A DNA stretch of 25,794 nt from positions 1-25,794 of the IMG/VR virus record IMGVR_UViG_3300019458_000081; one strand, 5' to 3'. This DNA is from a virus. Positions 6,454-22,831 of the stretch are shown one piece after another. Within the stretch, counting starts at the first letter, position 1; every line of letters begins with the position of its first letter. Both the position numbers and the translations under genes were made by a program. The notes under the pieces were generated by a model. The model was given only the letters and a program-made list of their open reading frames with translations. It did not search any database and was not told the DNA's origin.

Positions 6454-8667
6454 ATGGCAGGACGAGTTACACAAATAGTTGTGGAGTCCTTGGAGCAACT
6501 GACTCCAAAAAGTCGTGTAACTCAAATAGTTATAGAGACTTTGGAGAAATTAACTCCTAAGGCTCGAATAACTCAAAGTGTTGTTGAGATTTTACGTAGA
6601 ACAAGCGATAAAATAAGAACAACACAAATAATAGTAGAAGTTCTTCGTTCTACTTCAGGGGCTGCTTCTTTTGATGAATCTGTCAGTTTTAGCTCTATTG
6701 CAGGATTTACTAGAGCTATAATGATTAATTTTGACCCTTCAGTATCATTTACTTCAATTGCAAATGTTACATTTAATGAAGGGACAATTACTTTTAATGC
6801 TACTTTAACTTTAGCAGCTAATGCTAATGTTATATTTACTTCTACAGGTAATACGTATGAACCATCAATAACTTTTGTAGCTATAGCAAATATTATCACT
6901 GATCCAATTAGTGATATTCTTTTTGCTGTAGGTCAGGGGATAATATTCCAAGCTGGTGTAGTTAAAGAAGCTTCTTTAACTTTTATAGCTGATGCTGAAG
7001 TAATTTTTGATGGTCAAAGAGGCTTATTTGTACTTTTAGTTTTATCGAATTTTAGTCATATATCAGAACCTTTACTTGGTTTTGATGCTATATCAAGTAG
7101 TCATGAACATAATCAATTATCAGGTTATAGTACAGATTGCCAAGTATCTTTTAATCCTGTACTAACATTAATAGTAGATGCAGATGTAACTTTTGTAGTA
7201 GATGGAACATTTGAGATATTTATTCAGTTCTGTGTTCTTAATGGTGACATTAAGAAAATACCAGAACCATTGCCAAGTTTTGATGCAATATCAACTTGCA
7301 ATGAATCTGTGACTTTTCCAGAGATATTTACAGCTAATAATGTTGTAGATGTTTCAGTTATTTTTTCATCAACAGCTGGTTTTACCACAATAGGTGGTTT
7401 TGCATTATTTGATTCAATAGTATTTAAAAATTATACATCAATACCTGATCCATTAAATAGTTTCGATGCAATTTCTAGTTCTGAAACACTATCTTCATTT
7501 GATACAGTATTAGATGTAGTATTTGGACCTGAAGTAACATTAAATGCTTTTGCAACCATTACTTTTGTTTCTTCTGAAAATACGTTTGAACCTTCTATAA
7601 TATTTTCAAGTACAGCTGGATTTATACTTATTCCTAATAATGTAATAGACACTACATTACTATTTTCAGTAACATCTTTTGCTAATTTCGCTGCTGGTTT
7701 TATTATAGAATTTGAAATAATATTTAATGCCACACCAAATATAACTTTTGATTTATTAACTACATTTAATAATACTTTAACATTAAATGCTACTCCGAAT
7801 TTACAATTTTTCCCTGGTCAAGTAATATTAAGATCTCTTGCACAGACATTACTTCTTACTCAAAGCCATACTCGACAACGATTAATTATACGTTCTCTAG
7901 AAACCATAATAAATTTTACAAATACAGTAATAGCAGGTAAGGTATATGTTGTAGAAATAGAAAATGATTTAATTTTTACTCATCAAGCTATTAGAGTAAT
8001 TGAAGTTTTTGCAAGTAATATATTATATTTTAATGCAATATATCATCATATACCCGAAAATTTATTAAGTCATGATGCAATAGCAACTCAAAATACTAAT
8101 ACGGAAGCTGAATATGATAAAATAATGTATAGGGAAACCGAAAATGAGCTTGAATTAGTTTCGATATTAAATCAGAATTTCGTATTTAAAGTAGAAGCAG
8201 ATAATATTCTTGAATTCCAGACCACTTTTTATCAACTTATACCAATTGATAATGAAGTAATAGCTATACCAGATGTAACAGTTGTAAAATTACCTAAAAA
8301 ATGTATTGTAACTCTACAAGTTGATAATTCTATAATCATTCTGCCTTGTCCATTACTTAATGATACTCAAAATTTGAGTGGTACTCAATTATTACAGAAG
8401 AAATCAGTTGTAAATGATCTTTATACCTATGCTAGACAAACTGATCTTCAAAAATTGAAGTATACATTCATTCTTGATAGAAAAAAGAGTAAAGAATTAA
8501 AGGTATTTTTAGCAAATAATATGACAATATTGATAAAAATGATTAATTGGAAGGGTGAAATTTGGTTAGTTAAGCTTATAAATACCGCTTTTGACTTAGT
8601 CTTCAAGTCAAGAGGAGAGAGGGTTGAAGTATTATTAGAATTTGAAGGCGTTAAGATTGCGGGTTAA
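6454..8667 (+). CDS. Repeat-rich virion protein with RxTQ/VEVL and beta-strand repeats
   Basis: 737 aa. Residues about 3-65 hold four units of R-[VIT]-TQ-x-[VI]-V-E-x-L spaced about 17 residues. Residues about 70-480 are degenerate beta-strand repeats, with recurring patterns EPSITFVAIA, EPSIIFSSTAGF and four segments around P-[ED]-x-L-x-[SG]-[FH]-DAI[SA]. The C-terminal about 120 residues (from KKCIVTLQ to the end) match the C-terminus of the next gene product: SIIILPCP/ALIILPRP, LSGT, KSKELKVFLANN, EFEGVKI. It is probably a large tail or fibre component whose C-terminal domain docks on a shared partner. The ribosome binding site is weak (GATGTGA). Enzymatic function is not evident. Confidence 0.62.
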   Translation: MAGRVTQIVVESLEQLTPKSRVTQIVIETLEKLTPKARITQSVVEILRRTSDKIRTTQIIVEVLRSTSGAASFDESVSFSSIAGFTRAIMINFDPSVSFTSIANVTFNEGTITFNATLTLAANANVIFTSTGNTYEPSITFVAIANIITDPISDILFAVGQGIIFQAGVVKEASLTFIADAEVIFDGQRGLFVLLVLSNFSHISEPLLGFDAISSSHEHNQLSGYSTDCQVSFNPVLTLIVDADVTFVVDGTFEIFIQFCVLNGDIKKIPEPLPSFDAISTCNESVTFPEIFTANNVVDVSVIFSSTAGFTTIGGFALFDSIVFKNYTSIPDPLNSFDAISSSETLSSFDTVLDVVFGPEVTLNAFATITFVSSENTFEPSIIFSSTAGFILIPNNVIDTTLLFSVTSFANFAAGFIIEFEIIFNATPNITFDLLTTFNNTLTLNATPNLQFFPGQVILRSLAQTLLLTQSHTRQRLIIRSLETIINFTNTVIAGKVYVVEIENDLIFTHQAIRVIEVFASNILYFNAIYHHIPENLLSHDAIATQNTNTEAEYDKIMYRETENELELVSILNQNFVFKVEADNILEFQTTFYQLIPIDNEVIAIPDVTVVKLPKKCIVTLQVDNSIIILPCPLLNDTQNLSGTQLLQKKSVVNDLYTYARQTDLQKLKYTFILDRKKSKELKVFLANNMTILIKMINWKGEIWLVKLINTAFDLVFKSRGERVEVLLEFEGVKIAG

Positions 8668-8669
8668 AA

Positions 8670-9896
8670 ATGATATACGACGAAAGTATTTCTTTTAACT
8701 CGACCAATCAATTCCAATTAAATTTGGAAATTATATTTGGTCCAACGCTGACTTTTTCAAGTCTAGCGTTTATGAGACCAAAATATCAAAGATTTTTTAC
8801 TGCACAATTGGGTACACCTGAGAGTTATTTATCAAATTTCTCATTAGGTTTTAAAGGCTTAATATTTGTTGCTGAAGATGATACTACACATGCTCAAAAT
8901 GGTATTATTTTTGAACAGACAGCAGAAGTAGCAGGAGTTTTTGCTCAGCACCCTGAACAAGAACTTGTCTTTATAACAGAAGCAACTTTTGTAAGGATTT
9001 ATGGAAGAAATGTATTACATACATTAAATTTAAGTCAGATTGCTACATTTACTTATAGACCTGCAAAAAATACTATAGTATTTTCACATATAGTAAGTGT
9101 TTTGAAATCAAAGATTACTCCAGCATCTAATACATTATCATTTACTCAAAATGCAATTAAGGCATCAGGAAGTTTGTCTAATTTGTTTCCAATAAATACA
9201 ACCAATTTTAATCATACTGTAACAAAAGCTAGATTAGCTTTTAAGACAACTGATAATGCTTTAGTACTATCAAGTATTGCCACAAGAGGTGATAAAAGAT
9301 CAGGTTCAGATGATTTAGTATTAGTAGATTTATTAGATATAATGAGAGTAAGGAATAGATTAGCAGAAGATGAATTGGTTTTAGATCAAACGGCAGAATA
9401 TAATGTGATTTATCAAAGAGAAGCTAATAATCTTCTAGAAATTAAAAATGGTTATTATAGATCTTTTACAGCTATCCCTGGTCTTGAGATAGATATTCCT
9501 GGGGCAATTGGAGTTGTACCAAAAAGATTAGTACAACTTAGAACTAATAATGCTTTAATTATTCTACCTAGACCAAAGTTAGCTGATACTCAAAAATTAT
9601 CAGGAACAATTGTTTTTAAAAGATCTATAGTAAATAATTTGTACGTACATGTAAGAGATAATGAAATATATAGATTAAAATATGATTTTACTATAGATTA
9701 TTTGAAAGCAAAAGAATTAAGGGTATTTTTAACTAACAATTGGGCAGCTTTAATAGATATGCTCAATTGGAAAGCTGAAAATTGGAAAGTGAAAGTGGCT
9801 AACAATCCTTTGGAATTTATTTATCGGAGTAGAGCAATGGAGGCTCATGAAAGAATAGAAGTAACCCTAGAATTTGAAGGAATTAAGGTGACTTAA
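8670..9896 (+). CDS. Virion protein paralogous to its upstream neighbour at the C-terminus
   Basis: 408 aa, starting 2 nt after the preceding stop. It lacks the RxTQ repeats. The N-terminus begins with beta-strand repeats of the same type as the neighbour (DESISFNST, IIFGPTLTFSSLAF), followed by about seven units of a D/N-x-L-x-[FL]-x-Q-x-A pattern (NGIIFEQTAEV, NTLSFTQNAIK, DELVLDQTAEY). The C-terminal about 120 residues form the domain shared with 6454-8667 (ALIILPRPKLADTQ, AKELRVFLTNN, EFEGIKVT). Adjacency and shared ends suggest duplication followed by repeat divergence. Likely a tail or fibre structural protein; the exact place in the virion is unknown. Confidence 0.6.
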   Translation: MIYDESISFNSTNQFQLNLEIIFGPTLTFSSLAFMRPKYQRFFTAQLGTPESYLSNFSLGFKGLIFVAEDDTTHAQNGIIFEQTAEVAGVFAQHPEQELVFITEATFVRIYGRNVLHTLNLSQIATFTYRPAKNTIVFSHIVSVLKSKITPASNTLSFTQNAIKASGSLSNLFPINTTNFNHTVTKARLAFKTTDNALVLSSIATRGDKRSGSDDLVLVDLLDIMRVRNRLAEDELVLDQTAEYNVIYQREANNLLEIKNGYYRSFTAIPGLEIDIPGAIGVVPKRLVQLRTNNALIILPRPKLADTQKLSGTIVFKRSIVNNLYVHVRDNEIYRLKYDFTIDYLKAKELRVFLTNNWAALIDMLNWKAENWKVKVANNPLEFIYRSRAMEAHERIEVTLEFEGIKVT

Positions 9897-10711
9897 TGAA
9901 TACAGAACTTTCTATGGGACCAATGTCCCATAATGTATATACTTTGGAGTGCTTTGAAAATTGGTACCGAATCCCTTTAATTGGTACTAAGCTTTTTAAA
10001 CGCAAGACTCCGAAGTTAAAGTGGCGCGATAAGTTCCATAATCTTGTTGTGACTGCTGGACTTAATAAAGTCCTTGATGCTACGTTCAAGACTGGTCTTA
10101 CTACTCCAGCTTGGTATGTTGGTCTTAAGGGTGCCGGTTCGGTTGTGGCAGGTGATACTATGGCTAGCCATAGTGGTTGGTCTGAGATTACTCCTTATAG
10201 TAACTCTACCAGACCTGCTTTTACTCCTGGTACTATTTCTGGGGGTAGTGTTGATAATGCAGCTGCTAAGGCAGTATTTAATATTAATGCTACTGCTACA
10301 GTTGTTGGTGCATTCTTGGCTGATGATAATACTAAGGGTGGAACTACTGGTACTTTGTACGGAGCAGGTGATTTTGCTGCTAGTCGGTCAGTAGCTTCTG
10401 GTGATACCTTGATTCGGGGTCTCTAAGCAGTAATGCTTAGTTGCAATTGGGCCATATGCTGGAATATCCGAGTATCTACCTGTACTCAATTTGAGTGAAA
10501 ATCAGAGTAGTGCGGACAATCAGCAGGGAAGACTTTGATTTAAAATCAAAGAACCCTCAGAGACTGGATGCCCAACTCCTAGAAATAGGATGAAGTTACA
10601 GTCCGATCTATATGGCGACATATAGAAATAGGCAGAAATGTCCTATTCCTATGATTTACAATCATAGAGTAACAAAATGTGAATGTGACGGTCACATTGA
10701 CACAATCGTAA
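9896..10711 (+). CDS. Small virion structural protein, gene split by a group I intron
   Basis: Proposed as join(9896..10409, 10680..10711), 181 aa. Unspliced, the frame reads only six codons past the splice site before TAA at 10424. Splicing joins T10409 to TG at 10680-10681, making a Leu codon and giving the tail SGDTL-NVTVTLTQS before TAA at 10709-10711. The protein resembles a widespread phage family: a conserved-looking FHNLVVTAGLNKVLDATF, then WYVGLKG, GDTMASHSGW and YSNSTRPAF, ending in beta strands. It starts on the stop of the previous gene (TAATG). Codons are less AT-biased than in neighbouring fibre genes, resembling the capsid gene and perhaps reflecting high expression. The exact role (tail tip, neck or decoration) is unknown. 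Confidence 0.78.
10410..10679 (+). ncRNA. ORF-less group I intron
   Basis: 270 nt. P1: exon bases 10403-10409 (GATACCT) pair with the guide at 10417-10423, leaving T10409-G10417 as the U-G splice-site wobble. P4: GCTG 10458-10461 with CAGC 10521-10524, within TGCTGG and CAATCAGCAGG. P7: GACTG 10562-10566 (inside CCTCAGAGACT) with CAGTC 10599-10603 (inside AGTCCG). P8: CTATATG 10608-10614, loop GCGA, CATATAG 10619-10625. P9-type hairpins: 10628-10646 and 10649-10667. The intron ends in G10679. The flanking frames join exactly. No ORF is inside. Subgroup was not assigned. Confidence 0.9.
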
Positions 10712-10764
10712 AACTCTGTGTAAAATTGTCTTAACTCAATCTTATATTTTATAGGTAATTTTGT

Positions 10765-11253
10765 ATGCTGATTTGTTCAAGTTGTGGTGAAACTAAGTCT
10801 GAAACTGAATTTCACAAGAATTTAAGTATTAAAGTTAGGGGATATAGTTGGTATTGTAAGACATGTATGAAAATTAAATATGATTCTAATAGATCAAATG
10901 ATTATAAATCACGAAAGCGTGAACGAGACAGGAAGAAACGTAGAATTATGCTTCATTATTCAAATAATACTCTTACTTGTAAATGTTGCGGTGAGCATAG
11001 AATAGAATTCCTTACTATAGACCATATTAACAATGATGGCGCTGCCCATCGAAGGGAAATAGGACGTACACCACAAAATCTTTATAAATGGATTGAAGAT
11101 AATAATTATCCAGAAGGATTCCAAGTACTTTGTTTCAATTGTAATTGTGCAAAGGAATACAGTGGATATTGCCCTCATGAAGAAGAACAAATGATTCAAG
11201 ATCAAATAGATAAGTATGACTTGCCTCTTTTCGCTAATTTAATGGAGGCATAA
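10765..11253 (+). CDS. Free-standing HNH homing endonuclease
   Basis: 162 aa. An N-terminal zinc finger (C4, C7, C31, C34) is followed by a basic linker (about 48-61), then a zinc-associated HNH nuclease core: C72-x2-C75, the D86-H87 catalytic pair in TIDHINND, and LCFNCN (C123, C126) with the final Asn. It starts 54 nt after the spliced gene's stop and ends immediately before the next ATG (TAA-ATG), and its 3' end carries that gene's GGAGG. It lies outside the intron, so it is a free-standing endonuclease between two structural genes. Its position suggests it cuts intronless alleles of the neighbouring gene and promotes co-transfer of the intron. The target site is unknown. Start support is weak (TAGGT upstream). 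Confidence 0.85.
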   Translation: MLICSSCGETKSETEFHKNLSIKVRGYSWYCKTCMKIKYDSNRSNDYKSRKRERDRKKRRIMLHYSNNTLTCKCCGEHRIEFLTIDHINNDGAAHRREIGRTPQNLYKWIEDNNYPEGFQVLCFNCNCAKEYSGYCPHEEEQMIQDQIDKYDLPLFANLMEA

Positions 11254-12126
11254 ATGGCTGTTGCAGTTGCACTTTTCGATAGAGTAAAGGAATTTAGTAC
11301 CACTACTGGTACTGGTAATTTTACTCTCGCGGGTGCCCAGCCAGGTGGTTTCGAGACTTTTAATGCTAATGCGGGTGTTGGTCCGAAATTCTTCTACTGT
11401 ATACAAAATGTAGTAGCAAGTGAATTTGAACTTGGTATAGGTTCTCTTTCGGGTGCTACTACATTAGTAAGAGAGACAGTATACCAAAGTTCCAATAGTG
11501 ATAGCTTAGTTAGCTTTAGTGCAGGTACAAAGGATGTCTATATTCCTGCCGTTGCAGCATTTTTACAACCAATGACTGCAACAGGAGATATAATCTTTTG
11601 TGATTCTAATGGAGTTCCTGATAATCTTGCTATTGGATCTACTGGACATCAACTTACAGTTGTCGGTGGACTACCTGTTTGGGCAATAGATAATGTTAAG
11701 AGGATGACTGCTAATGCGACAAATGCTACTACCACGATGGCGAATTTAACAGATTTGTCAATAACATTAGTATCAGGAAAGAAATATACAGGAAGATTAG
11801 TAATTAAGTGTAATAATGATCAATCAATAGAAGGTATTAAGCTTGATTTTGATGGTGGAACAGTAAGTGTTAATGCTGTATGGTTTGCGGCAAGTGCTAA
11901 AGTTACTAGTGGTACAGTCGTTGTAGCAACAAATATAACAACTACACTTGCTGGTGATTTATCATTTACTACAATAACTGGTGAAACGGTAATAGAAGTA
12001 GAAGTTAGCATAGATGTAAATGCTGGTGGTACTTTTATACCGAGATTTGCTGAAGCTGCTTCTACTTCTGGAACTGTGACTGTTGAAACTGGATCTTATT
12101 TACATTTAAAGCAAAGTGATAATTAA
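11254..12126 (+). CDS. Tail fibre protein with adaptor module and beta-rich C-terminal domain
   Basis: 290 aa. Residues 1 to about 105 are the adaptor module FDRVKEFSTTTGTGNF ... FELGIG ... LVRETVYQSS ... FSAGTKDVY, which recurs in 12145-13917 and in the second half of 14290-14925; in phages it commonly attaches fibres to the virion. Residues about 108-145 (ATGDIIFCDSNGVPDNLAIG ... LPVWA) are a linker also found in the next protein. The C-terminal about 140 residues, with TTMANLTDLSITLVSGKKY, KLDFDGGTVSV and GSYLHLKQS, resemble small jelly-roll-like fibre tip domains. The ribosome binding site is GGAGG in the end of the HNH gene. Receptor binding is a reasonable inference. Confidence 0.7.
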   Translation: MAVAVALFDRVKEFSTTTGTGNFTLAGAQPGGFETFNANAGVGPKFFYCIQNVVASEFELGIGSLSGATTLVRETVYQSSNSDSLVSFSAGTKDVYIPAVAAFLQPMTATGDIIFCDSNGVPDNLAIGSTGHQLTVVGGLPVWAIDNVKRMTANATNATTTMANLTDLSITLVSGKKYTGRLVIKCNNDQSIEGIKLDFDGGTVSVNAVWFAASAKVTSGTVVVATNITTTLAGDLSFTTITGETVIEVEVSIDVNAGGTFIPRFAEAASTSGTVTVETGSYLHLKQSDN

Positions 12127-12144
12127 ATTTAAGAGGACTGTACT

Positions 12145-13917
12145 GTGGCAGCAGTATTAATAGCTGATAGAGTTAGAGAAACAAGTACAACTACTGGGAC
12201 AGGTAATTTTACATTACTTGGAGCAGTGAATACTGATCATGTTTCATTTAATACTGCTGTAACTGTCGGTCCTTCTTTTTATTATGAAATTATATTAACT
12301 GGCGGTGGGGAATGGGAAATTGGAATAGGTCATTTATCCAATTCAACTACCTTAGTAAGAGATACTGTTAAAAGAAGCACAAATTCCAATAATTTAGTAA
12401 ATTTCAGTGCAGGTACGAAAGATGTATTTATACCAGCACCAGTGGCCTTTCTTGCTCCTATGACTACTACTGGTGATCTAATTTATTTAGATTCTGGTGG
12501 GGAGCCAGCAAGATTAGGTGTTGGTACTAATGGACAATTTTTAACTTTGTCGTCTGGTATACCAGCTTGGGCAACTATTGCCCCTTTTGATGATGGAACT
12601 AATATTATTAAAGGATCGGCTGATCCTACGAAATTATTGAGATTTGAGATTGATGGATTCACTACTGCAATTACTAGAGTTATAACTCCACCAAATTCAG
12701 ATATTAATCTTCCTGGTACAAATATAACAAATACTTGGACATTAACACAAACATTTTCTGTTTCACCTACTGCACCTTTTGGTAGTGGGGCTAGAACAGA
12801 GCGTTTTGGATCGGGGGCTGGTAATGATTCTGCTACAGGGGCTGATAATATATGTATCGGTCCAAATGCTGGTGCTGCACTTACTAGTGGTATTCAAAAT
12901 ATTGCCATAGGTAGGGATGCTTGTGGTATACTTACTTCTACTAGTAATAATATAGCGATAGGTTATCAAGCCCTAGATGCAACAAGTGGTTTAGCTGATA
13001 GAAATGTTGCAATAGGTACTGATGCTTTAGGTCTTAATCAAAGTGGTGATGATAATGTAGCAATTGGTTATCATGCTTTAGATGCTGCAACAACTGGTGG
13101 TAATAATGTATGTATAGGTACAGATGCTGGTGGTATTTTTACAACAGCTTCTAATAATATTTGTATTGGATATAATGCAGGGTCAGCTTTAACAACATCT
13201 TCAGGTGATAATGTAGCAATTGGTAGTAGTACTTTAAATGGAGGATCTGGAGTTGCAAATGTTGCTGTAGGTAAGGAAGCTCTTCAAGATTCTTCTGGTG
13301 GTAATAGTAATACGGCTGTTGGATATAGAGCTGGAGCAAATACAACAACAGGTGATGAAAATGTTCATATAGGTGATAATGCTGGGTCTAATAATCTTAC
13401 TGGTAGTGATAATGTATGTATTGGGGTTGATTCACAAACAACGGCGTCAAATGTAAATGAGGCAATTGCTTTGGGGCATCTTGCACTTGCTCCTGGAAAT
13501 ACATTTGCCTTAGCTCCAGGAATTAATAGACAAATTCTTTATGGTACATCAAGTACTTCAACAAGAGAACGTTGTAGTTTTACTGTTTCTTGGGTTACAA
13601 GTACAGATGCATCACGCAAAGCTAGATTAGTAATAAGTGCTTGGGATACAGTTGAGAGAGAAGCTTTTCGCTGTGAAGGTAATGGTACTGTTGCTATTAT
13701 TTCTTGGTTTGGTGCAACTGCTGTAGTGAAACAGACCTCTGGAGCTGATTTAACTAATAATGTTACTTCTGGTGGTACTAATGATACTATAGCAGATTTT
13801 ACAGATTTAACTGTGTATGCTAACGATGCTGCTACAATTCGTAATGATATATATCAATTGTCAAGGAAGCTCAAGCAAATAAATGATGGTTTGCGTGCAT
13901 ATGGGTTATTTACGTGA
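12145..13917 (+). CDS. Tail fibre with YadA-like NxAIG repeats
   Basis: 590 aa, GTG start supported by AAGAGGA at 12131-12137. Order: adaptor module 1-105 (IADRVRETSTTTGTGNF ... FSAGTKDVF); linker (MTTTGDLIYLDSGGEPARLG); a neck to about 230; then about 13 repeats of N-[VI]-[AC]-[IV]-G-x2-A-[LG] spaced 14-18 residues (about 234-450). Such repeats form the left-handed beta-roll of trimeric YadA-like adhesin heads and also occur in phage fibres. A C-terminal domain of about 140 residues ends in a short helix (TIRNDIYQLSRKLKQIN). The protein is probably a homotrimer contacting the host surface. The DNA of the repeat region is degenerate, not an exact tandem repeat. Confidence 0.78.
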   Translation: MAAVLIADRVRETSTTTGTGNFTLLGAVNTDHVSFNTAVTVGPSFYYEIILTGGGEWEIGIGHLSNSTTLVRDTVKRSTNSNNLVNFSAGTKDVFIPAPVAFLAPMTTTGDLIYLDSGGEPARLGVGTNGQFLTLSSGIPAWATIAPFDDGTNIIKGSADPTKLLRFEIDGFTTAITRVITPPNSDINLPGTNITNTWTLTQTFSVSPTAPFGSGARTERFGSGAGNDSATGADNICIGPNAGAALTSGIQNIAIGRDACGILTSTSNNIAIGYQALDATSGLADRNVAIGTDALGLNQSGDDNVAIGYHALDAATTGGNNVCIGTDAGGIFTTASNNICIGYNAGSALTTSSGDNVAIGSSTLNGGSGVANVAVGKEALQDSSGGNSNTAVGYRAGANTTTGDENVHIGDNAGSNNLTGSDNVCIGVDSQTTASNVNEAIALGHLALAPGNTFALAPGINRQILYGTSSTSTRERCSFTVSWVTSTDASRKARLVISAWDTVEREAFRCEGNGTVAIISWFGATAVVKQTSGADLTNNVTSGGTNDTIADFTDLTVYANDAATIRNDIYQLSRKLKQINDGLRAYGLFT

Positions 13918-13962
13918 AAATAAGAGCTCAAAATTGATCAGAAAGTCAGAGGAGTTAAATTC

Positions 13963-14265
13963 ATGGCTGTTCAGAATTTATCATCTAAGAAAAGTAATTT
14001 TGTAAGTTACTGTAAAAATGCTACTACTCAATTTCTTGATTCTTATGAAAAATTAAAAGCTTTTAGACAAGAATGGACTTCTGAAGGTTATAGTGGGGCT
14101 ATATCTCAAGATGATATTAATGGTGATAATGCTCATATAACTCCGGGTATTTTAGGGAACTTAATGAATACTTTTGATGTTATAGAGTCTTTAATAAATT
14201 CTAATACTCCTATTATTAGTGGTAATGTGGGATATTTAACTAATTTGTATAATATGAAACCTTGA
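13963..14265 (+). CDS. Small helical virion-associated protein
   Basis: 100 aa, preceded by AGAGGAG at 13949-13955. Mostly alpha-helical: KKSNFVSYCKNATTQFLDSYEKLKAFRQEW, then a turn with DINGDNAHITPGILGNLMNT and a hydrophobic helix DVIESLIN. Proteins of this size and pattern (a helix, a 'G-x-N-x-x-I-T' turn, then a helix) are common among fibre and tail genes of phages but have no assigned function. No signal peptide, membrane segment or catalytic motif is seen. Position between fibre genes suggests a fibre accessory or tail component. Confidence 0.6.
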   Translation: MAVQNLSSKKSNFVSYCKNATTQFLDSYEKLKAFRQEWTSEGYSGAISQDDINGDNAHITPGILGNLMNTFDVIESLINSNTPIISGNVGYLTNLYNMKP

Positions 14266-14289
14266 TTATAATTATAATGGGGACTTGAT

Positions 14290-14925
14290 ATGATAAGTGG
14301 CTCCCCAGCTTCTGTTAATTCTGTTTCTACTCTTTCTTATTATATTTTTGAAAATACTACAACTTTACCATCTACAAGTAATTTTGTATTAGATATAATA
14401 GTTACTTTTGAAACATCTATAAATTTTATAGCCATAGCTAATTTGACTTTTTCACCAGCAAATGTAATATTGGTTTCTGTTGATTTTATTAGTACAGTTA
14501 ATATAATTTTTGTTGATTCTTTAAGTTTCGATGATTCAATAATTTTTATAGAAAATAATATAGTAAAGTTTTCTCCAATGGAGACTTTACTTGTAATTGC
14601 AGATCGTATTAAAGAATTTAGTATTACTATTGGAACTGGTGATTTTATAGTAACTGGTGCACAATCAGGTGGATTTCGAACTATTGATAGTGTTGTGAAT
14701 ATTGGAGAATATTTTCCATATTGTATTCAAAATACTACAAGTGATGAATTTGAAATAGGTGTTGGTAGATATATAAGTTCTAATACTTTTTCAAGAACTA
14801 TGGTGGAAGTTAGTAGTAACAACAATAATATTGTAAATTTTAGTGTTGGTACAAAGGATGTATTTATTGATATGCCTGCATTTATTTTAGGGAATATAAA
14901 TGCATTTATTTTAATTATTAGATAG
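14290..14925 (+). CDS. Beta-repeat/fibre-adaptor fusion, possibly a remnant
   Basis: 211 aa, with GGGGAC before ATG 14290. The N-terminal about 95 residues are beta-strand repeats of the type seen in 6454-8667 (VTFETSINFIAIANLTF, VDFISTVNIIF). From METLLVIADRIKEF to the end it is a complete but diverged copy of the fibre adaptor module (GTGDFIVTGAQSGGF, FEIGVGRY, FSVGTKDVF). Unlike the two intact fibres, nothing follows the module except a short hydrophobic tail, so there is no receptor-binding domain. It could be a short adaptor, a base for another fibre, or a remnant made by recombination. An internal ATG at about 14578 could start the adaptor alone, but no ribosome binding site was seen there. 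Confidence 0.55.
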   Translation: MISGSPASVNSVSTLSYYIFENTTTLPSTSNFVLDIIVTFETSINFIAIANLTFSPANVILVSVDFISTVNIIFVDSLSFDDSIIFIENNIVKFSPMETLLVIADRIKEFSITIGTGDFIVTGAQSGGFRTIDSVVNIGEYFPYCIQNTTSDEFEIGVGRYISSNTFSRTMVEVSSNNNNIVNFSVGTKDVFIDMPAFILGNINAFILIIR

Positions 14926-14932
14926 GTGAAAT

Positions 14933-15076
14933 ATGTTCGGATTTGATGCTCTATCTAATAGAGCTATTTCAGCTCTAGTCAGTAATATATATTTTGTTTC
15001 TATTCCTTACACTGAAACTAATATTTATATCATAAATGTAGGTAATGTTTTAGATACCGCTATAGAGTTATGGTGA
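14933..15076 (+). CDS. 47-aa small protein of unknown function
   Basis: ATG 14933 to TGA 15074-15076, following AGGTGAA at 14924-14930 and ending 6 nt before the next start. The peptide begins MFGFDALSNRAISALVSN, related to the GFDAIS segments in 6454-8667, and continues with short beta-prone stretches (IYFVSIPY, NIYIINVGNVLD). Good ribosome binding site, fitting length in an otherwise gapless operon, and similarity to a repeat in the same region support it. It may be a detached repeat unit rather than an independent functional protein. Confidence 0.45.
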   Translation: MFGFDALSNRAISALVSNIYFVSIPYTETNIYIINVGNVLDTAIELW

Positions 15077-15082
15077 GTTATT

Positions 15083-17008
15083 ATGGTTGAAATACTTCGA
15101 AATAATCCGTCTACGACTCTTAATGGTGCCATAAATTCTACTGTAACTTCTTTAATTGTAACTTCTGCAACTGGATTTCCTACTACTGGTGATTTTAGGA
15201 TAAGAATTGATAATGAAATCATTTTAGTAACATCAGTATCGGGGACTACATTTACTGTTATTAGAGCCGTAGAAGAATATCAAGGAACTCAAACTGCTGT
15301 CTCACATTCTAATGGTGCAGCAGTAACTTTGGTTTTAAGTCAGCATGGATTGTCTGATTTTATTCAAGTTGAAACTGGTGGTATTACTATGGGTAGCTTG
15401 GGTACTCCAGCTACTCCGACTGTAACACCACAAGGAACAACTGGGGCAACTACTTGGACGTATAAAATAGTTGCCAAAAATGCTAGCGGTAATTCGACTG
15501 CGGCTGGATCAGCTGGATCAACTAGTACCGGAAATGCTACTTTGACTAGTAGCAATTTTAATAGAATAACTTGGATAGAATTAAATAGAGCCACAAGCTA
15601 TGATATATATAGAACAGTAGCAGGTGGAACACCATCTACAATAGGTAAAATAGGCAATACAAGTAATACTACATTTGATGATACAGGTTTAGCGGGTGAT
15701 TCTGCTACTGCACCATCTGTAGATAAATCATATTATAGTGGTGTTAATACTGCTACTCCAGGAGTTGAATGGGATGTAACTGGAAGTGGTAGATATTCGG
15801 TTGGTTTGGTTGTAGGTTTTGCTGGAACTCCATCAGCTGATATTATTCAAATAGGTGATTCAAATTTCTATATTGATTTTAATATTACTGCAATTGGACC
15901 TGGAATCAATTTCGATTCAGGGGATTATTTACAATATGATAGAGCCACAAACACATTTACTATCTTAACAGGAAGTTCTTCTAGATTTTCTCTTAATTCT
16001 TCAGGAGTAAATATATTTCAAGGATTAAGAGTAGGTTTTAGTGGAAATCCTGCTGCAATTACAAGATTAGAAGTAACAGATTCGACTTTTTATTTGGAAG
16101 TGCAAAGTGGTGTTTCAACTATTTTATTAGATACTGGAGATTATTTTAGTTATACTCGTAGTACTAATACATTAGAATTTTTAATAGGTGCAAATACATT
16201 ATGGAAATCTACTTCATCTGATTTTGATTCAATTGCTGCATATAAAGGGATGTCAGTTGATTATAATACAGTTTCCAGTGATAGTTTTGGAATGTTATGG
16301 TATCAAGGAAATAATTCAGTAGCAAGAGCATATTATGTCTTTATGGATATGAATGCTCAGGCTTTTAGAGTAGTCGGAAATACAACTGGTTCAGAAGTTG
16401 AATGGGCAAATATAAGTGATACAAGTGGTTGGGCTGCTGCATCCGGCTCTCCATTTAAAGATAATATTAAGACAATAACACAGCAACAATTAAATTATCT
16501 TTTTAAGTCTATAATTAATGTTCCTCTTAGAACTTATAGACGTAGAGATGATGTTACACAATCGTTAGAATTTGGTATATTAGCTGAAGAAATATTACCA
16601 GAAATTCTCTCTGCAAAGAATAAAGAATTTATTCAACCAGTTAAATGGTTAGGTGTTCTTACAGCTTTGGTGCAGTCGCTTGCTGTAAGAGTAGCAAGAT
16701 TAGAGGGGAATCCTATAGTATGGGAAGCTGAATTAAAATTAAGAGTAACTGCTGGAATGATGGGACGTGCGCGTGGTCTTTTTGATACTAGACAAAGATT
16801 CATATCTTCTAATGAAATGATTCCAGATCATTTCTTTTATGGGGAAATGTTTTTTGACTCTTTGTCTAATATAGGATTAGACGGAATAAATGATTTAAAT
16901 CGGAATGTAGAATTGGTTATAGCTACGCTTGAATTTGGACCTGATGCCAATGTAGATGTAGAACCTACTATGACTTTTGATTCCAAGTCAGGAATTGACA
17001 ATGAGTAG
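15083..17008 (+). CDS. Tail fibre with S74-type intramolecular chaperone domain
   Basis: 641 aa. Residues 1-95: beta-rich attachment module shared with 4402-5394 (GFPTTGDFRIRIDNEIILV, GTTFTVIRA). Residues about 115-215: an FnIII-like domain (TPTVTPQGTTGATTW, TYKIVAKNASGNST, YDIYRTVAGG). Residues about 225-440: repeated beta shaft units (RYSVGLVVGFAG, DSNFYIDFNI, GDYLQYDRATNTFTIL; second copy GDYFSYTRSTNTLEFL). Residues about 454-545: a peptidase S74-like chaperone, S454-GSPF-K459-DNIKTI, FGILAEEILPEIL, ALVQSLAVRVARLEG. S74 domains trimerise fibres and self-cleave before the Ser. The Ser-x4-Lys spacing is kept, but the usual Asp and Arg are replaced. About 95 further residues follow, which is unusual. 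Confidence 0.75.
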   Translation: MVEILRNNPSTTLNGAINSTVTSLIVTSATGFPTTGDFRIRIDNEIILVTSVSGTTFTVIRAVEEYQGTQTAVSHSNGAAVTLVLSQHGLSDFIQVETGGITMGSLGTPATPTVTPQGTTGATTWTYKIVAKNASGNSTAAGSAGSTSTGNATLTSSNFNRITWIELNRATSYDIYRTVAGGTPSTIGKIGNTSNTTFDDTGLAGDSATAPSVDKSYYSGVNTATPGVEWDVTGSGRYSVGLVVGFAGTPSADIIQIGDSNFYIDFNITAIGPGINFDSGDYLQYDRATNTFTILTGSSSRFSLNSSGVNIFQGLRVGFSGNPAAITRLEVTDSTFYLEVQSGVSTILLDTGDYFSYTRSTNTLEFLIGANTLWKSTSSDFDSIAAYKGMSVDYNTVSSDSFGMLWYQGNNSVARAYYVFMDMNAQAFRVVGNTTGSEVEWANISDTSGWAAASGSPFKDNIKTITQQQLNYLFKSIINVPLRTYRRRDDVTQSLEFGILAEEILPEILSAKNKEFIQPVKWLGVLTALVQSLAVRVARLEGNPIVWEAELKLRVTAGMMGRARGLFDTRQRFISSNEMIPDHFFYGEMFFDSLSNIGLDGINDLNRNVELVIATLEFGPDANVDVEPTMTFDSKSGIDNE

Positions 17009-20490: not shown

Positions 20491-22831
20491 ATGTATACTT
20501 TTCTGAAGACAGTTGAATTCACGTGCCACGAAAATACTGTGGACGCTTTTAATCCACAAATGTGGGCATCATTTTTTTACCCCTCTTGCTAGTGATAGTA
20601 AGATGAAAAGCGTGCTATTTGCTGGAAACTCCTCTTGAATTTTGCAAAATTCAAAAAGGCTAACATCACTCATTAGGTAACAAAATGTTAGTATGGGACA
20701 ATCAGCAGGCAACCAGTTGGTTCATTGGTATTCTTGAGGCTGAAGGACATTTTAATAAAAGAGATAAATGTATTGTAATAACTAACACAGATAGTGATAT
20801 AATCAATGAATGTGTTAGGTATTTGAATTCTTTATTGTTGTTTCCTATGGAAAGCCAAGAAAAATTGTCTAGTGGTAAAATATCCTATATAATTAGGATA
20901 CCGACCACTGAGACTAAATTGCTTTATTATCATATTATTAATAAAATGGAATGTCGGACACAAGAATACCAAAGAATAATGGGTGCCTCAGAGACTATAC
21001 GCACGCCAACTATTGATCTGCATTGGCTCATTGGACATTGGGAAGGTGAAGGTTGTTTGTCTTTGAGTAGACAACAACGTATTAAAAATATTCACTATCT
21101 ACCTGAAAGCAAAACTGTTAATACTAATCATAATATGATTAGTAAAGTTAGAAAAACTTTGAATTCATTAAATATTCCATATTATATAAAGGATTATGAT
21201 GGAGTGTTTCCACGTAAGCCTTACCAGAGACTTACTTGTACAGGAATGAAACGTTGTAATTATTTTTTAGAAGCTACAAAAGATTTGTGGAGATCTTCTA
21301 GAAATATAAAACGTTCAAAGTTGCTTTCAGATTTTATTGATAGTAGATTAAGTAAATCTCAATGTGAACCATATACTGAGCTAGAGCATGATATTTATTA
21401 TCAGCTTAAAAGATTAAATAGTTGATGAGATAGTCCGAGCTTGCAGCGAAACTGCAAGAAAATAGCAGAAATGACTATTTCCTTTGATTTGAAATCAAAG
21501 AGTAACAAAACTGACAAGAATCCCTTGCGATTCTAGAAGAAAACATGGTGGCGGCTCAGCTTATCCATCGTGATTTTTCTGATATAGTTCAACAATTTGG
21601 TGATACTGTTAATACCCGTCGTCCGGGTGAATTTGTTGCCAAGCGTAAAGGCAATGCTGATGAAGTTACTATTCAAGACGCAACTGCAACTAATGTTGCT
21701 GTGAAGCTTAATCAATGGGTTTATACATCATTCATGATTAAGGATGGTGAAGAGAGTAAGGCTTTCAAGGATTTGGTTGCTGAGTACATGGCTCCTGCCA
21801 TGCTTGCTCAGGCTCGACATGTTGATCAAGTTATTCTTGGTCAATATGCTCAATTCCTTGAAAACAATTTCGGTTCCTTGGGTGGCTTGACACCTTCGAC
21901 TGCTAAGACTTATATTCTTGGCACGCGTAATGTTATGAATAAGAATAAGGCTTACATGCAGAATCGCAACCTTATTCTAACGCCGAATAGTGAAACTTCT
22001 ATACTTGGACTTGACTTATTCTTGGCCGCTCAGGATGTTGGTGATAATGGTACAGCTTTACAAGAGGCTGCTTTGGGTCGAAAGTTAGCATTCGATATGT
22101 ATATGGCCCAGAATATGGCCACTGTGCTTACAGGTAATACCACTTCACTTGGTGCACTGAATGAGGCTGGTTCAGTTGGTGAAACTGTATTGGATGTTGA
22201 CGGTTTCACTGGTGCTGTTAGCACTGGTGGATGGTTAACGATTGCTGGTGATGATACCCCATATCGTGTTGCTGCTCATACTGAGACCCTTGGTAATACT
22301 ACACAGATTACTTTGCATACTGGTCTTCGTTATGCTGTACTTGATAATGCTGTTGTTACTTTCTATGTGCCAGGTGCAATTAATTTCGTGGCTGGTTATG
22401 ATGAGGGGTATGACAAAGAGATCGTTGTAGATGGTTTCACTGTTGCTCCTCAGGTAGGTCAATTAGTTAGCTTTACTAATGACAATGCCACTAGCCCAAT
22501 TTATACTATTATTGGTGTAACTGGTTTGGTTGGCATTACTTTGGATCGGCCTTTGGAGGCAGATATTGCTAATAATGATGAAGTTAATATCGGCCCAGCC
22601 GGTGAATATAATCTTGCATTCCACCGTAATGCTATGACAATGGTTATTCGTCCTCTGGCTGCACCTAAGGAGGGGACTGGTGCTCGTTCTACAGTTGTTA
22701 ATTACAATGGACTGTCAATGCGTGCGACTATTACTTATGATGGTCGTAAGCAAGGGCACTTAGTCACGCTTGATATGCTTTTTGGTATCAAGGTTTTGGA
22801 CGAAAATCTTGCTGCTGTTATGTTTGGTTAA
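20491..22831 (+). CDS. Major capsid protein (P22-like HK97 fold), split by a group I intron
   Basis: Proposed join(20491..20573, 21514..22831), 466 aa; a 5' splice site at 20576 also keeps frame. Exon 1 begins at ATG 20491 with AGAGG at 20481-20485 and encodes MYTFLKTVEF ... FNPQMWAS before running into a stop at 20590 inside the intron. Exon 2 continues QESLAILEENMVAAQLIHRD, and a stop codon covers 21512-21514 if unspliced. The ATG at 21545 would give a protein lacking 38 N-terminal residues. Coat features: NTRRPGEFVAKRKG, WVYTSFMIKDGEE, AEYMAPAMLAQARHVDQ, MNKNKAYMQNRNLILTPNS, and a C-terminal LDMLFGIKVLDENLAAVMFG. Residues about 249-316 are an inserted beta module shared with the tail tube protein. 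Codons are less AT-biased than in the fibre genes. Confidence 0.88.
20574..21513 (+). ncRNA. Group I intron in the major capsid gene
   Basis: About 940 nt; the 5' edge is uncertain by 3 nt (splice after 20573 or 20576). P4: GCTG 20621-20624 with CAGC 20703-20706, in TGCTGGAAA and CAATCAGCAGG. P7: GACTAT 20993-20998 in CCTCAGAGACTA with ATAGTC 21430-21435 in ATAGTCCG. P8: CTTGCAG 21440-21446 with CTGCAAG 21452-21458. A P9-type hairpin, CTTTGATTTGAAATCAAAG at 21482-21500, precedes the end AGTAACAAAACTG, with final G 21513. A perfect hairpin lies at 20635-20654. Core sequences match the intron at 10410. The endonuclease ORF runs through P4 and P7, inserted mainly between the two halves of P7. 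Confidence 0.88.
20685..21425 (+). CDS. Intron-encoded LAGLIDADG homing endonuclease
   Basis: 246 aa, the size of a monomeric two-motif enzyme. Motif 1: W12-F-I-G-I-L-E-A-E20-G21; motif 2: W114-L-I-G-H-W-E-G-E122-G123. The acidic residues E20 and E122 are the expected metal-binding pair at the domain interface; Glu in place of Asp is common. It should cut intronless capsid alleles near the exon junction and so spread the intron. The 5' end of the ORF contains the intron's P4/Q segment and codons for GASETIRTP contain the R segment of P7, so coding and ribozyme sequence overlap. No Shine-Dalgarno is obvious; expression may depend on intron structure or phage timing. Confidence 0.9.
   Translation: MLVWDNQQATSWFIGILEAEGHFNKRDKCIVITNTDSDIINECVRYLNSLLLFPMESQEKLSSGKISYIIRIPTTETKLLYYHIINKMECRTQEYQRIMGASETIRTPTIDLHWLIGHWEGEGCLSLSRQQRIKNIHYLPESKTVNTNHNMISKVRKTLNSLNIPYYIKDYDGVFPRKPYQRLTCTGMKRCNYFLEATKDLWRSSRNIKRSKLLSDFIDSRLSKSQCEPYTELEHDIYYQLKRLNS

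Follow-up and report, generated by a model that had tools for sequence, protein, structure and literature searches.

Intron-encoded nucleases usually target the insertion sites of their own introns. To our knowledge, few collaborative homing pairs are known experimentally, and we know of none that involves the PHROG 2255-like HNH family. A free-standing nuclease gene next to an intron-split gene is the layout of collaborative homing (PMC6083498, PMC3984707, PMC10448857, PMC12724721). In cyanophage S-PM2, the free-standing gene of F-CphI (ORF177) adjoins psbA, which is split by a group I intron (PMC6083498), and in the ICP1 terL intron with its T5orf172 nuclease, as in a T3/T7-like intron with a neighboring nuclease, the nuclease lies outside the intron, beside an exon of a phage gene (PMC10448857). 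Here we describe a similar layout in the uncultured-phage virus record IMGVR_UViG_3300019458_000081, a stretch of 25,794 bases that was analyzed as a whole and is referred to below as the window.

According to ORF and profile searches, the structural module of the window is P22-like, comprising terminase, portal, tail/fiber genes, scaffold, and major capsid protein. One of its structural genes, on the plus strand at 9896-10711, matches PHROG 8123 (E = 8e-32, profile search), with a match under the cut-off to Pfam Gp80, a podophage fiber protein (E = 8e-4). The gene is interrupted 32 nt ahead of its end by a 270-nt element (10410-10679), which separates exon 1, the Gp80/phrog_8123-like tail/fiber part (9896-10409), from exon 2 (10680-10711), which encodes NVTVTLTQS plus the stop and agrees with the C termini of intronless homologues. 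The Rfam model RF00028 matched at 10399-10625 over all model positions (65.7 bits, E = 7.8e-15), above its gathering score of 50. Joining 10409|10410 to 10679|10680 restores ...SVASGDTL|NVTVTLTQS*, as found in the contiguous intronless homologues. P1 contains a U10409.G wobble at the 5' splice site, and the intron ends in G10679; by reading, P10 could form between AUUC (10412-10415) and GAAU of exon 2 (10681-10684). In the core, P3, P6, P7, P8, P9, and P9.2 pair, and P4 was also identified. The original prediction held that the intron has no ORF, and the ORF list of the window indeed contained no ORF of 60 amino acids or more within these 270 nt. Judged by its sequence, the element at 10410-10679 is a group I intron, compact and ORF-less, which is presumably self-splicing. 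Its insertion site, GDTL|NVT, falls in the second-best block of the protein, at rank 4 of 156 conservation windows.

Downstream of exon 2, a 53-nt gap (10712-10764) with a weak AGG ribosome site near 10753 precedes a free-standing HNH endonuclease gene on the same strand (10765-11253; ATG at 10765, stop at 11251-11253). The predicted start, 54 nt after exon 2, agrees with an ATG at 10765 and a last exon base at 10711, and the distance from the intron to the HNH gene is 86 bp. The next structural gene, probably encoding a fiber protein, occupies 11254-12126 (plus strand), with its ATG directly after the HNH stop, and its GGAGG Shine-Dalgarno sequence (11244-11248) lies within the C-terminal codons of the HNH gene; the nuclease gene thus contains the ribosome binding region of its neighbor, as had been proposed. 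The C-terminal 20 or so residues of the HNH protein, which overlie this Shine-Dalgarno sequence, are absent from its relatives. Relatives do not share a conserved next gene, which prevents reconstruction of the site as it was before the HNH gene was inserted. In the stretch 11254-17008, the structural genes are paralogous and have a start module in common (RVKEFSTTTGTGNFTLAGAQ...), which recurs at 11254, at 12145, and within 14290-14925.

The 162-aa product has an N-terminal zinc ribbon and an LTIDHINNDG...LCFNCN active site, and its assignment as an HNH protein is based on PHROG profiles, the motif, and a modest fold match, Pfam being silent. In a profile search the protein matched PHROG 2255, annotated as HNH endonuclease, with E = 6.3e-15, and endonuclease VII profiles matched more weakly; in the Pfam search, no HNH or other relevant model was matched. 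Aligned with 35 relatives, it keeps all invariant residues of LTIDHINNDG, CxxC, and LCxNCN, including D86, H87, N89, D91, and G92 and the cysteines C72, C75, C123, and C126. By motif reading rather than structural superposition, the family reads D-H-I-N, with Asn where H43 stands (residues from PMC6083498). The AlphaFold model is confident (pLDDT 86.9), and its structural neighbors include Gme HNH (4h9d), GVE2 HNH (5h0m), and PacI; several of the top matches are HNH nucleases, but none scores high enough to establish the fold (Foldseek E of 0.067 or worse; Z of 3.7-4.0 to 5h0m and 4h9d). A sequence search of solved structures gave no usable match.

The gene is uninterrupted at the insertion site in about 85 homologous alleles from virus contigs, MAGs, and named phages, and in none of them was the window's HNH gene found next to it. 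This set covers 25 virus contigs, four MAG contigs, L090, L111/L124, and a deeper 80-locus scan that overlaps the first set. In the five named-phage records opened, the annotated gene is likewise uninterrupted and no neighboring nuclease is annotated, and a DNA-level search of named phages gave no match. The nearest relative is L157, with 80% protein identity over the matched region, and the order of the module is common to five relatives (L003-L006 and L090), all of which are intronless. In L319 an in-frame insertion lies upstream of the site, yet the C terminus still reads GDTLDVT. Candidate intron carriers among homologues with a match ending at residue 170, i.e., L300, L307, and others, were ruled out, as GDTLTVTVT is unbroken in them. 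No allele with this intron and without this HNH gene, or the converse, was seen among the homologues found. The proposed comparison for joint presence or absence gives a mixed picture: both elements are missing from all homologues found, which says little given how rare each of them is, and two intronless relatives carry other HNH genes.

One of these, L003, has an unrelated HNH gene at 6558-7064 (PHROG 1872, E = 4e-17; PHROG 826), which starts 39 nt downstream of the uninterrupted gene's stop codon and shares 4 nt with the start of the small gene that comes next. At L004:6534-6729 no HNH gene is present and the small gene directly follows the same gene, so that the two related phages form a clean present/absent pair. 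The other, L008, carries an HNH/NUMOD3 gene 484 nt downstream of the intronless gene. Together, these loci indicate that nuclease genes are gained and lost behind this gene with no intron present. L003 and L008 weaken the notion that the intron and the HNH gene need each other; the nucleases in this slot also fit a conserved target close to the end of the gene. A neighbor in L011 with a zinc-ribbon, nuclease-like start was discarded, as it matched no HNH profile.

Beyond this gene, the HNH family has more than 100 loci, about 10 of them inside phage group I introns (L039, L050/L072, L057, L082, L084, L086, L087, L182, L184, and L193) and the rest apparently free-standing; the counts of intronic members are approximate, since introns were scanned with a home-made regex filter that admits chance matches. 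The scan missed L086, which was assigned through its alignment to L082 and L084. Where the host gene of intronic members was read, it was the major capsid gene. The same regex scan revealed no introns beside most free-standing members. The family tree needs a minimum of two switches between the intronic state and others, and in this poorly resolved tree of few columns the window's HNH protein does not group with the intronic members. As a separate observation, the major capsid gene at L082:3850-5480 is split by two group I introns, the first HNH-bearing and the second ORF-less, and the relative L084 has no counterpart of the ORF-less one.

The only other beside-the-intron case found is L059, where a double-HNH member immediately precedes a gene that contains three group I introns, none with an ORF (47.4, 43.9, and 25.7 bits, all under the gathering score of 50; E of 1e-9 to 4e-3). 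Here, too, the HNH ORF runs over the Shine-Dalgarno sequence of its neighbor, the split gene. The three introns are closely spaced within one gene (L059:4689-5680), and the middle exon is very short. L167 was rejected as a third case because its intron, which lies in a capsid-type gene (L167:1069-3354), holds a LAGLIDADG ORF; downstream is a free-standing gene of the window's HNH family.

The window contains a second group I intron, at approximately 20568-21513, which splits the P22-like major capsid gene (20491-22831; ...NPQMWA|QESLAILEENMVAAQ). The two-domain LAGLIDADG ORF of this intron (20685-21425) extends across its ribozyme core, and P6 (20707-20714/20981-20988), P7 5' (20993-20998), P3' (21001-21006), and P8 (21008-21014/21417-21423) all lie inside the ORF, their helices pairing perfectly or near-perfectly. 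This would place LAGLIDADG domain 1 in L6 and domain 2 in L8, with the P3/P7 strand in the linker-coding stretch. Overlap of an ORF with the core is known as "core creep" (PMC3073962), and the second intron looks like an extreme case of it. Its predicted 5' splice site (20560-20570) ends in C instead of U (ATGTGGGC|ATC), and the partner of that C may be A, forming a C.A wobble. The two introns of the window share a 3' segment (83% over 51 nt), and directly after P9 both have the hairpin AATAG-(G)CAGAAATG-CTATT (10626-10647 and 21459-21479), the loop of which, CAGAAATG, is conserved. A strict-pattern search for the 3' segment of the 270-nt intron found none, and the hairpin also occurs in about nine other phage contigs that contain cores resembling those of group I introns (L131, L135, L138, L142, L145, L146/L155, L149, L150, and L152). 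As a relaxed pattern finds many phage group I introns, AATAG-CAGAAATG-CTATT was rejected as a specific link between the introns of the window.

We consider it probable that the HNH protein is a free-standing homing endonuclease and that the linked ORF-less intron is copied along during homing. A free-standing phage HNH gene would have established itself behind a conserved structural gene, in an intergenic slot that nuclease genes repeatedly occupy. Upon co-infection with a phage that has no such cluster, the HNH protein would nick or cut the uninterrupted gene in its 3' region, and donor-templated repair would copy the nuclease gene together with the linked intron, i.e., co-conversion; the intron would then splice out, leaving the gene functional, and it may shield its carrier from the cut. 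The intron and its splice sites, the family of the nuclease, the empty alleles, and the presence or absence of nuclease genes in the slot among relatives are observed, whereas cleavage by the HNH protein, the location of its target, and co-conversion are inferred. The reading draws on the splice product, the intact active-site residues, the empty alleles, the L003/L004 pair, L059, and the conservation of the insertion site. As the intron site and the HNH gene are 86 bp apart, a nearby cut would be expected to copy both, so transfer of the intron as a passenger is likely if the enzyme is active, and the intronic members mark the family as capable of intron homing. In a narrower form of this explanation, which overlaps with it, the HNH protein would cut the exon junction itself, GGTGATACCT|TGAATGTGAC, and the intron would interrupt the target and protect its carrier, so that both spread together, as with F-CphI and S-PM2 psbA. 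We regard this form as a serious possibility short of probable. The highly conserved block at the intron site would make a suitable nuclease target, the ORF-less intron lies close to a gene of homing type whose family has intron-encoded members, L059 provides a second locus, and there are precedents (PMC6083498, PMC3984707, PMC10448857). Against it, the intronless L003 tolerates an HNH gene in the slot, so that occupancy needs no protection by an intron, albeit with an HNH gene of another family; the nearest relatives of the window's HNH protein are free-standing, in a tree of low resolution; and by inspection the insertion sites of the intronic relatives have no visible motif in common with the window site. 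The proposal of a collaborative pair thus keeps its footing in the anatomy of the locus, the intron-encoded members of the family, and the neighborhood of L059, and it loses ground to the slot nucleases of L003 and L008. That a PHROG 2255-like HNH protein forms a genuine collaborative pair on a conserved tail-gene site, and that such a pair arose independently again in L059, can be advanced tentatively.

The unrelated HNH genes near the same gene in L003 and L008, together with the lack of introns seen near most free-standing family members, would also suit a slot that is simply a nuclease hotspot, where the HNH protein targets the next gene or a site elsewhere and the intron came separately and gains nothing. 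This seems somewhat unlikely, as a cut near elements so closely spaced is expected to co-convert the intron and the association is repeated in L059. It is likewise unlikely that the intron lost a homing nuclease of its own and that a new free-standing HNH gene later took the neighboring slot, an alternative proposed for ICP1 terL (PMC10448857), although the second intron of the window, with a similar 3' segment, keeps its LAGLIDADG ORF and the slot gains and loses HNH genes (L003 versus L004). The 270-nt intron holds no remnant of an ORF, and a 3' hairpin common to many phage introns gives no sign of recent common descent of the two. Such turnover concerns origin and can be compatible with either form of homing. 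Finally, some phages keep conserved HNH genes among their head genes (GVE2-type, PMC12724721), and the HNH protein could be a structural or packaging-associated phage nuclease instead of a homing enzyme; this is very improbable, since it belongs to a different sequence family with intron-encoded relatives, and its gene is absent from all syntenic relatives and does not lie between terL and portal.

If the pairs of the window and L059 are genuinely collaborative, the family would show the inside-intron, beside-intron, and intron-free states side by side, which are steps proposed for the making of mobile introns. A nuclease family whose genes lie within introns, next to ORF-less introns, or on their own offers material for testing how mobile introns are assembled, and the empty alleles, e.g., L003 to L006, are natural cleavage substrates.

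Compared to the described systems, the window resembles S-PM2 psbA in that homologous alleles of the split gene are intronless; F-CphI has an Endo VII-type DHHRN motif, whereas the window's nuclease belongs to an HNH-type TIDHINNDG..LCxNCN family and its target is presumed. The ICP1 and T3/T7-like cases differ in nuclease family and host gene, and splicing has been shown in ICP1, whereas it is predicted for the window intron. The HNH proteins in capsid-gene introns of L039, L084, and L087 are of the same family and also associated with phage group I introns, but their ORFs lie inside the intron and that of the window lies outside. Free-standing phage HNH genes of intronless homing, e.g., L003:6558-7064, are similarly intergenic and optional and overlap the start region of the next gene; unlike the window, L003:6558-7064 has no intron nearby and is of another HNH family. 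The arrangement is a good candidate for the known mechanism of collaborative homing, and cutting at the intron site, the step that defines it, is plausible here.
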